Below, piece by piece: positions 12,712-32,355 of a stretch of 32,611 nucleotides of DNA. The notes beneath the pieces are model-generated. The model did not search any database, was not told the DNA's origin, and saw nothing but the letters and a program-made list of their open reading frames with translations. The DNA lies in the NCBI GenBank assembly GCA_030523425.1, contig JAUNIP010000018.1:1-32611 (forward strand). The letters are read 5' to 3'. The translations under genes were made by a program, and so were the position numbers. Source of the DNA: Coriobacteriia bacterium. Its GTDB lineage: Bacteria > Actinomycetota > Coriobacteriia > Coriobacteriales > Eggerthellaceae. Position 1 is the stretch's first letter; every line of letters starts with the position of its first letter.

Positions 12712-12752
12712 GAAAAAAGCGGCAAGTGACCGGGTCACTTGCCGCTTTTTTT
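12712..12752 (-). terminator. Strong intrinsic terminator after ppdK
   Basis: A perfect 13-bp stem (12718-12730 with 12734-12746) with a three-base CGG loop is flanked by six A on the left and at least six T on the right. Read on the minus strand it ends in a T-run, 31 bases past the ppdK stop. It is symmetrical, so it could work in both directions. Confidence 0.9.
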
Positions 12753-27973: not shown

Positions 27974-28993
27974 CTATTCGCCGCCTTCCGAAGCCTGATC
28001 GGCGTCGGTTTCACTGGCCAAGGCGGCCATGATTTGGCCTGGCAGGTCTTCGCGGACCATGGTTGCCGTGGCAGCAACACCGTTTTTGATGGCAGTGGCA
28101 TTTGAAGACCCATGGCCCACCATGCAGCCGCCCTTCACGCCTAAGAGCGGGGCGCCGCCGTAAGTGTCGGCGCTGACAGTGTCTTTGAACTTATATAAAT
28201 CACCCTTGATGCACAGCGCCCCAACTTTAGTCTTCAAAGACGTCATCATGATGTTTTTGATGGCGCTAAACAGCATCTTAGACGTGCCTTCTATGGTTTT
28301 CAGGCACACATTGCCGGTGAAGCCGTCGGTAACCACCAGGTCATACGTGCCATTCACCACGTCATGGCCTTCGGCGTTGCCCTGAAAGCCCTCCACGTCC
28401 TTCAAGGCCGCATGGCAAAGCTGCGCGAATTCCGACCCCTTGGTTTCTTCTTCGCCGATGTTCAGCAGGCCAACCGTGGGGTTTTGCACGCCTAGCACGC
28501 TGCGGCAATAAATGCGCCCCATAATGGCGAACTGCACCAGATATTCGGGTTTGCAATCGGCGTTGGCGCCAATGTCGGTAAGCACGCACGGCTTCACCGG
28601 CGAAGGCACCACCGTGGCCAAGCAGGGCCGCTTGATGCCTTTCACGCGCCCCATGACCAACGTTGCAGCAGAAAGGCAGGCGCCGGTGGACCCGGCAGAA
28701 AAGAAGCCTTTGGCCTTGCCTTCCTTCACCAGGCGGCAGCCCACCACCAGCGAAGAGTCCTTCTTGCGGCGCACCGCATTGGCGGGGTGTTCGCCCATAT
28801 CGATGACTTCGGTAGTGACCACCGCTTCGCAGTGCGGCTGCTGTTCGGCGAAGGGTTCCACCACTTCGGCCGGCCCGCACAGCATGATGCGCAGATTATC
28901 GTCCGCCGCCAAGGCCTGGGCGCACCCATCAAGCACTACGCCTGGGGCATTGTCGCCCCCCATGGCGTCAACGGCAATAACAGTTGGTTCCAT
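27974..28993 (-). CDS. plsX: Phosphate acyltransferase PlsX
   Basis: PlsX makes acyl-phosphate from acyl-ACP, the donor for PlsY in phosphatidic acid synthesis. The 339-residue protein begins TVIAVDAMGGDNAP and has the family blocks VRRKKDSSL, FFSAGSTGA, DIGANADCKPE, LLNIGEEETKGSE, VVTDGFTGNV and YGGAPLLGVKG. The ATG at 28993 has GAAGGAG five bases upstream. It is the first gene of the plsX-rnc-smc-ftsY-ffh run. The rpmF gene that often precedes plsX is absent; accessory DNA lies upstream instead. The 9-mer CATATGCAC occurs twice upstream (28991-28999 and 29056-29064). Confidence 0.96.
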   Translation of the reverse strand: MEPTVIAVDAMGGDNAPGVVLDGCAQALAADDNLRIMLCGPAEVVEPFAEQQPHCEAVVTTEVIDMGEHPANAVRRKKDSSLVVGCRLVKEGKAKGFFSAGSTGACLSAATLVMGRVKGIKRPCLATVVPSPVKPCVLTDIGANADCKPEYLVQFAIMGRIYCRSVLGVQNPTVGLLNIGEEETKGSEFAQLCHAALKDVEGFQGNAEGHDVVNGTYDLVVTDGFTGNVCLKTIEGTSKMLFSAIKNIMMTSLKTKVGALCIKGDLYKFKDTVSADTYGGAPLLGVKGGCMVGHGSSNATAIKNGVAATATMVREDLPGQIMAALASETDADQASEGGE

Positions 28994-29131
28994 ATGCACT
29001 CCTTCCGAGACATCCTCGCAATGAGTGCATGTGCCTGACAGCGCCCGCTGCAAGGCATATGCACACAAAGGCTGCGCACGGCACAGCAACTCTACATGAT
29101 ACCGTGAACAAAGGGACTTCGCTTGTGTGAT

Positions 29132-29236
29132 TTATGTAAGTTGGCGCAGGCGGAAAGCGAAGGCACTGCTACCGCACAGCTCCTTGGCCTTGGTGATGAC
29201 CACCATGTCCGAAGGCGGCCGGCGCGGGTGGGTCAT
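29132..29236 (-). pseudogene. Truncated Avd-like (four-helix-bundle) reading frame
   Basis: The frame starts at an ATG (29236) with AAGGGA at a suitable distance, 41 bases past the hairpin that follows the surface-protein gene. It encodes 34 residues: MTHPRRPPSD, then MVVITKAKELC, then GSSAFAFRLRQLT and a stop. The VITKAKELC segment resembles the first helix of the four-helix-bundle accessory proteins (Avd-like) found next to diversity-generating retroelements in gut bacteria; this is remembered family similarity, not a search. An intact protein would have about 110-130 residues, so the rest seems lost by deletion near 29170. A chance short frame cannot be excluded. Confidence 0.45.
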
Positions 29237-29277
29237 GGGCGTCCCTTCGTGCGGGGTCCAACAGCGTGCAAATGTTT

Positions 29278-29306
29278 CGCCGCGGGGCCTTAAGGGCCCC
29301 GCGGCG
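29278..29306. other. Perfect GC-only 12-bp stem hairpin just past the surface-protein stop
   Basis: CGCCGCGGGGCC (29278-29289) pairs perfectly with GGCCCCGCGGCG (29295-29306) around a five-base TTAAG loop. It begins 19 bases after the stop codon. On the minus strand it is followed by AAACATTTG, not a T-run, so it is not a canonical intrinsic terminator. A GC-rich hairpin or cruciform just downstream of the variable region is required for efficient homing in the Bordetella phage retroelement (established knowledge), which offers a different explanation. A Rho-type or non-canonical terminator is the alternative. Confidence 0.8.
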
Positions 29307-29325
29307 GGATTAGAGGATTTCCAGA

Positions 29326-29460
29326 TTACAGATTCACCCATAAAGCGGGGCGGACGGCGCCGATGGAGCCGTCCACGTAGTAGCCGACGGAGTTCACGTA
29401 GCCGTCGCCGATGACGTCCGCGGCGCTGCTCGAGTAGTAGCCTGGCGAACGCAGCCACCA
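29326..29460 (-). other. Candidate DGR variable region at the 3' end of the M4 protein gene
   Basis: The last 44 codons encode WWLRSPG, a run YYSSSAADVIGDG, then YVNSVGYYVDGSIG and AVRPALWVNL. Fixed framework positions (WWLRSPG, RPALWVNL) flank positions that are Y, S, D, I, G or A and mostly end in C (TAC, AGC, GAC, ATC, GGC, TCC). That is what adenine-directed diversification of AAC codons would give, and C-type-lectin-fold C-termini are the usual DGR targets. GC-rich codon bias also favours C endings, so this alone is weak. No A-rich template repeat copy occurs in the window. Confidence 0.45.
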
Positions 29461-32355
29461 GTCGCAGGCGGCCACACCGTCAACGGTGTAGCCGGACCAC
29501 TGCCAAGCCCCCTGGGCCACGGCGTAGGGCGTCGGGGCGCACATGCGGTCGGGGTAGGCTCCTAAGGAGTCGTCGTAGGTGGAGTCGAAGTACTTGCCAA
29601 CCTCCGCCAGCGACAGGCAGAACACGTTGTCGGAGGTGTCGTTGCCGCCAGGCGTCCCGTAGTCGGGGTTGTCGTCGTTCGCCACCCAGGTAGACGCTAT
29701 GCGCGCCTTGTCCGCTGCGCTGAAGGCGGCATCGTAGAAGGTGCCGTTCAGCCATACGCGCAGCGTGCAGGTTTCCCACGTAACACCGGCGTAGGCGGTG
29801 TTGTACCGCTGGCAGTCCAGCGCGTACCTGCTGACCAGCAGCTTCTTGCCGTTCTGCTCGTCCAGCACGCGCCACTCTATGTCCTCCGGGCCGTTTTCCA
29901 GGTTGTTGTCCTGCTCGTACTTCCCGAACAGCACGTAGTCCCCCACCTGCCGGCCGCCGCCGGGCCGGGTGATGCCCGCGGAGTCGAAGGCGTCCTTTAT
30001 GGCGGCAATCTGCTTCGGCGTCCATCCCAGCCGCCTGGCGGTGACCAGTATGGCTTCCCGCGCGTTCACGAACTTCGAGTCGGGGGACAGCAGGAACAGG
30101 GAAATGTAGTAAAGCTCGGCCCACTGTTCCTTGCTTATCGGGCTGCAGCGTCCGTCTGTCTGCATCAGGTAGGTCGCGTGGTTGAATATGCCGCTGTTCG
30201 CGTGGACGCCGCCGTAGTCGTGGTCGCCGTCTATTGGAAGGTTTTTGTAGTCCGCGTAGTTGTCGGGCTGACCGTAGCCGCCAGGGTTCGACAGGCTGCG
30301 GGTTGTCCATCCCTTGTCTTCCCCGTACAGCCACCGCCCTTCGTCGTCCTTTCCCTCTATGAGGCTGCCCATGATGTCGGCGTAGGACTCGTTCAGGGCG
30401 CCGGGCTCGCCAGCGTATGTCAGCCCGAGGCCGCTACCGCCGCCGACGACGCTGCCTATGACTGCATGGGTGAACTCATGCCCGAACGTGTCCAGGCCAG
30501 CCGTGTAGTTCCCCTGGTCACCGAAGACGAACTGCATTATGTCCGAGTCCCAGTAGGCGTTACGCACGCCCTCCTTCCTGCAGCTCACGCGTATGGGGGT
30601 GCCGGCGCCGTCGTAGGACCTCCGGCCCAGTTTGTCCCTGTAGTAGTCGTAGACGCAGGCCATGTTGGCATGGGCCGACACGTAGTCAGGGTCGGGGGTG
30701 CCATTGAAGGACACCAGGTCGCCGGGGTAGATGGGATTCCTGAAAATCCACCAGCCGGAGTACGCGACCCGGTAGGTTCCTATCGAGCGGAAGGGGTCCC
30801 ACAGGTCATACCCGTTGCCATTGCTGGTTGCCGTGAACGTCCTGGTGGCGCCTAGCATGTCCTGTGCCGCTATGTCATCAACCCGGACGGGGGCGAAGTC
30901 GTCGTCCTGCTGATTGCCGAAGGACGAGAGCACCTGGCCGGCGGCGTAGCTTTGGCTGTTGGCGGCCACGTAGTACGTCTTGCCGCCGCAGGGCAGGAGC
31001 GGGGCGTCCGCCGCCGCGTCGGGGGTTGCCCCGCCGGTGTCCGGCCCGCTTATGACCACCCTGTAGACCAGGGAGGCCGAAGAGCCGTCGTCCCCCGGCA
31101 GCACGAACAGATCGGCCTGGGACAGCAGCGGCACGGAGGAATCAAGGGAATAATCGCCGCGGTAGCTTTGCTCGGCGGCGGCCACGGCGTCGGCGGCGGA
31201 TATGCCGGCCTGGGTGTCCACGGCGCCTATGCCGGTGTCGTAGGTGCTGAACAGGCCCTGGGCTGTGCCCGCGGAGTCGGAGTCCACCACGATGCTGGAG
31301 CCGATGACGGGCACGCCGTTCACCGTGGGCTCGTAGCGCAGGATGATGTCGGCGTCGGCGTCGTCGGAGGTGCGGGTGACCGTCACGTCGGACTGGTCGG
31401 CCCCAAGGGATTCCCCGAACAGGCCGCTGGTGGAGTTCAGGAAGTCGCACATGCCGGCGGCGTCGGCGATAGGCTGGGCCCAGAACGTGCCGTCGATCAT
31501 GGCAGGCGTCACGCCGTCGCTTTCGAACTCGGTGTCCACGGTGCCGTCATCCACCAACCCCTGCAGGTCGCCCCGGTCGAAGACGCCGTCAGACATGGTG
31601 TCGCGCATGATGGCGGAGGACCCGATGCCTAAGATCTTGCTGGCTTCCGCCCTGGTGGCGTTCCCTTGGGGGCGCAGGAAGCCGTCGCCGGTGCCGCTGA
31701 TGGCCCCTATGCCGTTCGCCCAGCCGATGCCGTCATAGGCCCAAGCAGACGCCGAGCCCGCGTCCTTGAGCGCCGACTGCCACTCGTCGCTCGGCGCCCC
31801 CATCACGGAGCAGCCCTGCCCCCGGCAGTAATCGGTGAAGCCCAGCAGCATCGTGGCCAGCTGCTCCCTGGTGACAAGGTCGCCCGGCCCGAAGGTGCCG
31901 TCGTTGTAGCCGGTGGTCACCCCGACGGCCTTGCCCCAGCAAACCGCGTCGTAGAACCAATCGCCGGGCTGGACGTCGGGGAAGGATCCGCGCCCGCCCA
32001 CGTCCAGGCCGAGCGTTCCCGCGCGGTTGTACATCACGGCCAGGGCCTCGGCGCGGCTGAGCAGGTTATCGGGGCCGAAACAGCCGGTCGGGTTGCCGTC
32101 CGCGTCGGAATAGCCGTGGAAGAGCCCCCTCTTCACGGCGGTTTCGACGCAGGTGGCGTACCAGGCATCGTCGGCCACGTCCGCAAAGCCGGAAGCAGAG
32201 TCGGAACCGTCCGACAGCGGAAGGACGGTTGCCGCGTCCGCCGCCGGGCTAGCCGGGGCCTTGTCGGGGCTGGCCACGGCCGCGGCCGGGCACAAGCCAG
32301 CGGCCAGCACCGCGGCCAGGGCGAATCTAACAAGCTTGCCGGAGATTCCTTTCAT
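29326..32355 (-). CDS. Secreted SLH-anchored M4 metallopeptidase with C-terminal DUF6273/C-type-lectin-like domain
   Basis: This 1009-residue exported protein has several parts. A signal peptide ends near AVA-SP (residue 28). Three SLH repeats (about 57-105, 123-170, 190-240) should bind secondary cell-wall polymer. A FTP/PepSY-like propeptide follows (about 285-440). The thermolysin-type catalytic domain (about 510-795) has HEFTH (zinc ligands H626, H630; catalytic E627), the third ligand E656 in GALNESYAD, and H718 in GGVHANSGIFN. A DUF6273-type domain (about 804-1009) begins VGDYVLFGKYEQ and ends GAVRPALWVNL. GAGGAGG precedes the ATG at 32355. SLH plus M4 suggests a wall-anchored protease acting on extracellular protein; the lectin-like tail may choose its target. 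The combination is unusual. Confidence 0.9.
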   Translation of the reverse strand: MKGISGKLVRFALAAVLAAGLCPAAAVASPDKAPASPAADAATVLPLSDGSDSASGFADVADDAWYATCVETAVKRGLFHGYSDADGNPTGCFGPDNLLSRAEALAVMYNRAGTLGLDVGGRGSFPDVQPGDWFYDAVCWGKAVGVTTGYNDGTFGPGDLVTREQLATMLLGFTDYCRGQGCSVMGAPSDEWQSALKDAGSASAWAYDGIGWANGIGAISGTGDGFLRPQGNATRAEASKILGIGSSAIMRDTMSDGVFDRGDLQGLVDDGTVDTEFESDGVTPAMIDGTFWAQPIADAAGMCDFLNSTSGLFGESLGADQSDVTVTRTSDDADADIILRYEPTVNGVPVIGSSIVVDSDSAGTAQGLFSTYDTGIGAVDTQAGISAADAVAAAEQSYRGDYSLDSSVPLLSQADLFVLPGDDGSSASLVYRVVISGPDTGGATPDAAADAPLLPCGGKTYYVAANSQSYAAGQVLSSFGNQQDDDFAPVRVDDIAAQDMLGATRTFTATSNGNGYDLWDPFRSIGTYRVAYSGWWIFRNPIYPGDLVSFNGTPDPDYVSAHANMACVYDYYRDKLGRRSYDGAGTPIRVSCRKEGVRNAYWDSDIMQFVFGDQGNYTAGLDTFGHEFTHAVIGSVVGGGSGLGLTYAGEPGALNESYADIMGSLIEGKDDEGRWLYGEDKGWTTRSLSNPGGYGQPDNYADYKNLPIDGDHDYGGVHANSGIFNHATYLMQTDGRCSPISKEQWAELYYISLFLLSPDSKFVNAREAILVTARRLGWTPKQIAAIKDAFDSAGITRPGGGRQVGDYVLFGKYEQDNNLENGPEDIEWRVLDEQNGKKLLVSRYALDCQRYNTAYAGVTWETCTLRVWLNGTFYDAAFSAADKARIASTWVANDDNPDYGTPGGNDTSDNVFCLSLAEVGKYFDSTYDDSLGAYPDRMCAPTPYAVAQGAWQWSGYTVDGVAACDWWLRSPGYYSSSAADVIGDGYVNSVGYYVDGSIGAVRPALWVNL

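Follow-up and report, generated by a model that had tools for sequence, protein, structure and literature searches.

A probable relic of a diversity-generating retroelement target at the 3′ end of an S-layer-anchored M4 protease gene in an Eggerthellaceae genome

The 3′ end of a protease gene in a Coriobacteriia bacterium of the family Eggerthellaceae is probably the relic of a diversity-generating retroelement (DGR) target, frozen after the loss of most of avd, the template repeat (TR), and the reverse transcriptase (RT). The gene lies in the window, the whole 32,611-nucleotide stretch of contig JAUNIP010000018.1 that was analysed (Table 1). A relic had been proposed from the sequence alone, and the proposal gained support from an ungapped match to a foreign TR, an adenine bias in the differences, a lectin fold, a target family already published, an avd-like start, and the canonical DGR order of target, hairpin, and avd. 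Target, hairpin, and avd-like frame were located on one strand, and their position, strand, and order were as predicted before any search. The genome is a 1.97-Mb draft in 92 contigs with a completeness of 99.4%, and was the single genome of its genus in the comparison.

Table 1. Features of the putative relic locus and its surroundings, in window coordinates.
Feature	Position	Strand	Basis
Target gene, 1009 aa, SLH-M4 protease	29326..32355	(-)	Domain search and gene call
DUF6273 domain of target	29329..29958	(-)	Pfam and AlphaFold2 model
Variable-region-like segment	29344..29470	(-)	Ungapped match to G036 template repeat, 96/127 bases
28-codon core of variable-region-like segment	29356-29439	(-)	
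GTCCGCCCCGCT, 3′ edge of TR/VR identity in G036	29344..29355	(-)	TR/VR alignment
AATCTGTAATCT, post-VR motif ATCTNNNATCT, spans stop codon	29323..29334	(-)	Motif comparison of tails
Perfect 12-bp GC stem, 5-base loop	29278..29306	(-)	Fold computation
GAAGGGA, ribosome-binding-site-like	29242..29248	(-)	Ahead of short frame
34-codon frame, putative truncated avd	29132..29236	(-)	Similarity of start to Avd N-terminus
QLT*ITQAKSLCS, second weak Avd-start-like stretch, same frame, spans stop	29105..29143	(-)	
plsX, next gene	27974..28993	(-)	

The target protein comprises a signal peptide, S-layer homology (SLH) domains, an FTP propeptide motif, an M4 thermolysin-type metalloprotease, and a C-terminal DUF6273 domain. 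The M4 motifs are intact, with HEFTH at aa 626 and NESYAD at aa 655. A Pfam search of the protein placed DUF6273 (PF19789) at aa 835-1008 with 98.8 bits, and the C-terminus reads ...CDWWLRSPGYYSSSAADVIGDGYVNSVGYYVDGSIGAVRPALWVNL up to the stop. The PDB entry that best matched an AlphaFold2 model of the domain (pLDDT 96.3, pTM 0.91) was DUF6273 of the IgA protease 9QA6 (Z 17.5), followed by the DGR variable protein TvpA (2Y3C; Z 7.3), with many C-type lectins at Z of about 5-6 and Mtd further down the ranking (Z 5.1), a Z below 8 being one that may mean merely a common arrangement. The domain is predicted to adopt a C-type-lectin fold, and the C-type-lectin-like gene end first recognized in the sequence was borne out by Pfam as well as by the model.

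The variable region (VR)-like segment was aligned with the TR of a DGR in G036, a genome from another Coriobacteriia family. The 28-codon core departs from the template at 17 of 28 adenines, as against 8 of 56 other bases. Because an AAC-rich template differs from any homologue mostly at adenines, the non-A positions served as the control and carry the weight of the comparison; the next best of the other DUF6273 tails of equal length, which included tails with a GC3 of 0.82-0.94, had 18/56 non-A mismatches to the same TR. The core kept the third C in every AAC codon of the G036 TR (13/13) and of the TR of a Synergistaceae genome, L060 (14/14). Third bases of the core agreed with the G036 TR in 25 of 28 cases, whereas the codon usage of the gene itself predicts 17.4 (p = 1.8e-4). 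A third-base test of framework versus VR against G036 (p = 1e-10) was discarded as confounded by base composition, since the G036 framework is AT-rich at third positions. One Y of the window stands opposite W in the G036 template and opposite AAC in the L060 TR. At the DNA level, the window VR matched G036 at 87.8 bits and the window DUF6273 framework gave no match there; fixed GC3-rich homologues scored up to 62.6 bits against the window VR. As in a DGR target, the differences fell chiefly at template adenines, a bias seen only against the templates of other species because the window VR's own template is absent.

G036 was detected by a DNA search of 60 relatives through two copies 1297 bases apart, which are the VR of a DUF6273 target and its TR, CNWWLRSPGNSSSNAANVNSNGNVNSNGWNVNNSNNGVRPA. 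These copies differ by 25 mismatches, 20 of them at TR adenines, and the cassette includes a DGR RT (RVT_1) and a gene resembling bAvd. This complete DGR (L160 7279-9892) resembles the window in its order, DUF6273 target, ungapped type of TR/VR pair, post-VR motif, and, putatively, Avd N-terminus. It differs in its whole cassette with a DGR-type RT, in an additional ORF of 211 aa that separates target from avd, and in AT-rich third positions; its target is a repeat-rich surface-type protein, whereas that of the window is a protease. The G036 TR and VR are GC-rich at third positions within the AT-rich gene, as if the template had been imported. TRs of the G036 pattern, together with Avd genes, were also present in a Clostridiales MAG (UBA1740; L045) and in the Synergistaceae MAG L060. 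Both have, like the window, a DUF6273 target, and the framework of the L045 target shares 59% identity with that of the window. Their TRs show the pattern AANVNNDG.VN, and their Avd starts, which the short frame of the window resembles, take the form QSELT[IV][IV]TKAKDLC; unlike the window, they have a TR and other target architectures. The L045 VR is masked by N, and no RT was seen on the L060 contig.

Conserved DNA was found at the 3′ end of the VR and just beyond it. In G036, the TR/VR identity stops at GTCCGYCCCGCT, which the window has as well, and the edge GTCCGCCCCGCT is a candidate part of the initiation of mutagenic homing (IMH) element. The tail search caught five DGR targets whose TR is identified, and in all five a motif, ATCTNNNATCT, lies 3′ of the VR. 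Among 43 DUF6273 tails, it was present in these five, in the window, and in 2 of the 37 others, a pattern noticed post hoc in a small set; it occurs in about 0.09% of window 36-mers. Since ATCTNNNATCT spans the stop codon in the window, protein similarity alone is an insufficient explanation, and the motif may be a piece of the homing signal. Edge and motif make up IMH-like conserved DNA at this VR end. Two DUF6273 tails (L044 and L051) carried the motif with no TR on the DNA examined and are possible orphan targets. In G048, a genome from another family, tandem DUF6273 genes (L162 and L029) have last bases, GCTTTATGGCTGAATCTGTAATC, nearly identical to those of the window; the likeness reaches across the stop codon, and no TR was found.

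The perfect GC-stem hairpin that had been noted in the sequence was recovered at its place, starting 19 bases 3′ of the target stop, with a local fold of -35.2 kcal/mol (z = -3.9). Several DGRs of the family likewise have a GC hairpin shortly after the VR. Because a paralogous 3′ end on contig C4 has a similar hairpin, followed there by T6 as in an ordinary terminator, the hairpin alone is not diagnostic, and that of the window could be either a DGR-type post-VR hairpin or a terminator without a U tract. Elsewhere in the window, the 3′ end of the PPDK gene has an 18-bp perfect hairpin with A/T tails at 12713-12751, which is a bidirectional terminator.

The claim that a short frame past the hairpin resembles Avd stood in part. 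The frame begins MTHPRRPPSDMVVITKAKELC and is preceded by GAAGGGA. Its Avd-like stretch, PSDMVVITKAKELC, was compared with Avd starts of the DGR type, which read QSELTVVTKAKDLC in L060, QSELTIITKAKDLC in L045, and NELSVITHAKELC in G036; the similarity ends after LC and is followed by unrelated sequence and a stop. With an Avd profile of three sequences, the frame ranked 1 of 1593 six-frame fragments, yet its E value of 0.19 is not significant by itself. The Avd match covers about 13 residues, and for the Avd-like start a small-set tblastn search yielded E values between 7e-4 and 3e-3. The frame and its ribosome-binding site were recovered, and the N-terminal likeness is tentative; Pfam, PHROG, and NCBIfam gave no match to the frame. 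A full-length four-helix-bundle Avd (bAvd, PF22296) is not present, and about 14 N-terminal residues remain. The bAvd profile found nothing in the same genome and 40 family genomes, a result that says little on the fragment since true Avds of the G036, L045, and L060 type score 35-37 bits, under the PF22296 cut-off. Comparison of the 34-aa frame with 398 Coriobacteriia genomes, which is insensitive at such a length, gave chance matches only, for example in the L28 5′ region. In IMG/VR, VITKAKELC had no match and ITKAKELC had three, none recognizably Avd; the Avd alignment retrieved three distant relatives from IMG/VR, among them L226, which has a TR/VR pair. An Avd search in phages found none, and no leftover RT homology was detected in the spacer.

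No DGR-type RT was found in the genome that holds the window, where RVT_1 matched an AbiA fragment only. This fragment (L001; G000:C50:1-1284) comes from an abortive-infection RT of the AbiA type that is truncated where the contig starts. RVT_1 picks up the RTs of G036 (53 bits) and L045 (74 bits), so that it should also have picked up any RT like them in the assembly. A blastn search for a TR in this genome returned nothing but related DUF6273 ends, and an A-tolerant template pattern (3 mismatches over 72 bases, A tolerated) had the VR itself as its sole match in this genome and 137 family genomes. A 28-bp match in G027 lay inside an EAL-domain gene and was rejected as chance, and a VR-framework pattern had 51 matches in IMG/VR, none in a DUF6273 tail. 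In the family, RVT_1 detected RTs in 20/138 genomes, several of them of DGR type on reading, and TR/VR pairs with adenine-biased differences were recovered in 7 of 8 regions around DGR-type RTs, so that DGRs are within reach of the search methods. These seven regions (L089-L094 and L096) came from six family genomes, with a DUF6273 target in three. The sequence-only reading had made its proposal depend on such parts in this or related genomes: no TR or RT was found in the genome itself, whereas related genomes contained a TR, RT, and Avd of the type.

Sibling 3′ ends were present on two other contigs of this genome. The one on C4 (L025 1-1225) belongs to an SLH-DUF6273 gene with a framework of about 75% DNA identity to that of the window; it has a T-tailed hairpin terminator and a variable core of different length, and was rejected as a target of the same TR on account of that length. 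On C70, a lone decayed DUF6273 3′ end with a hairpin (L008; G000:C70:12692-12840) was found without an intact gene ahead. This end aligned without gaps to the G036 TR, with 15/60 non-A mismatches, and is probably a second relic VR. It was rejected as the missing template, being a decayed copy whose variable codons are not AAC.

Under the relic reading, the lectin-fold domain of the S-layer-anchored M4 protease would be a former DGR variable protein, encoded in a cassette with the order target, hairpin, avd, TR, and RT. We infer past mutagenic retrohoming in this lineage, in which the RT, copying an AAC-rich TR, would have placed random bases opposite adenines, and the gene's 3′ end would have been replaced by the resulting cDNA. 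Later the TR, the RT, and most of avd would have been lost, or the target may have moved beside plsX with the 5′ end of avd only. A single binding-surface variant would now be frozen on the protease, where it presumably aids binding of substrate or a host surface. In a possible, if unlikely, version of these events, the already-written target and the avd 5′ end were acquired from a DGR donor, and the lineage never had the whole cassette. The closest DUF6273 frameworks outside the genome in a species-wide scan came from Clostridiales, and in relatives with a resolved upstream region plsX is preceded by rpmF, not by the target gene, and by no DGR. Against acquisition, the sibling ends on C4 and C70 point to a longer stay, and the GC3 of the target gene is high, as in the neighbouring genes, so that no recent import is visible.

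An alternative in the sequence-only reading was a remote target served by a DGR elsewhere in the genome. In the form considered here, the target would be live, its DGR would sit on a contig (phage, plasmid, or chromosomal) absent from the draft, and the avd fragment would be a remnant of local duplication. With no TR and no DGR-type RT in the assembly, this alternative lost ground and appears quite improbable: neither blastn nor the A-tolerant pattern revealed a TR in this or the 137 family genomes, and AbiA was the only RT match at the completeness given above. In its favour, the post-VR motif and 3′ edge are intact, as is the protease, the draft is in 92 contigs, mobile DNA often goes missing, and active DGRs have been published in Eggerthella lenta prophages. 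Ongoing diversification of the wall-anchored M4 protease in trans by a DGR on an unassembled element, which would make the binding specificity of this surface protease rapidly changeable, is correspondingly doubtful. Improbable, too, is an ordinary fixed DUF6273 tail followed by an intrinsic terminator, in which the avd-like frame and the template likeness would reflect coincidence or shared domain descent. The non-A match to the G036 TR is far better than that of other equal-length tails, and the post-VR DNA motif and an avd-like start where one was predicted also argue against a fixed tail, even though DUF6273 is common in proteins without a nearby TR, the C4 paralogue combines a T-tailed terminator with a different-length core, and the fixed GC3-rich homologues reach the score reported above against the VR.

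Several parts of the probable relic have counterparts in known systems. DGRs of Faecalibacterium and Flavonifractor phages have the VR within a DUF6273 domain of C-type-lectin fold; unlike the window, they are whole DGRs, and their targets are phage receptor-binding or decoration proteins (PMC11792537, PMC10743442). Treponema denticola (PMC4891356) and Anabaena (all3226; PMC7517822) provide examples of orphan DGR targets, so the kind is already known. According to the portions of these two reports at hand, those orphans are, like the window, remnant VRs with RT and TR gone or not nearby, whereas their target proteins are different and the same portions report no truncated avd. The Thomasclavelia ramosa IgA protease 9QA6 is, like the window's protein, a metalloprotease with DUF6273, and its DUF6273 is the closest solved fold; it differs in being M64 rather than M4 and in its N-terminal DUF6273, and the available part of its description does not mention a DGR (PMC12402451). 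An SLH-M4-lectin architecture was not found described as a DGR target in the literature.

These findings suggest a cellular DGR lineage, defined by its DUF6273 target, template pattern, Avd start, and post-VR motif, across Coriobacteriia, Clostridia, and Synergistota, and suggest that a surface protease was once among the targets of this lineage. A variant that is frozen and lacks its retroelement is relevant to what follows the discovery of a useful variant. The conserved post-VR motif is a testable candidate for a homing signal, and offers a handle for finding orphan targets.
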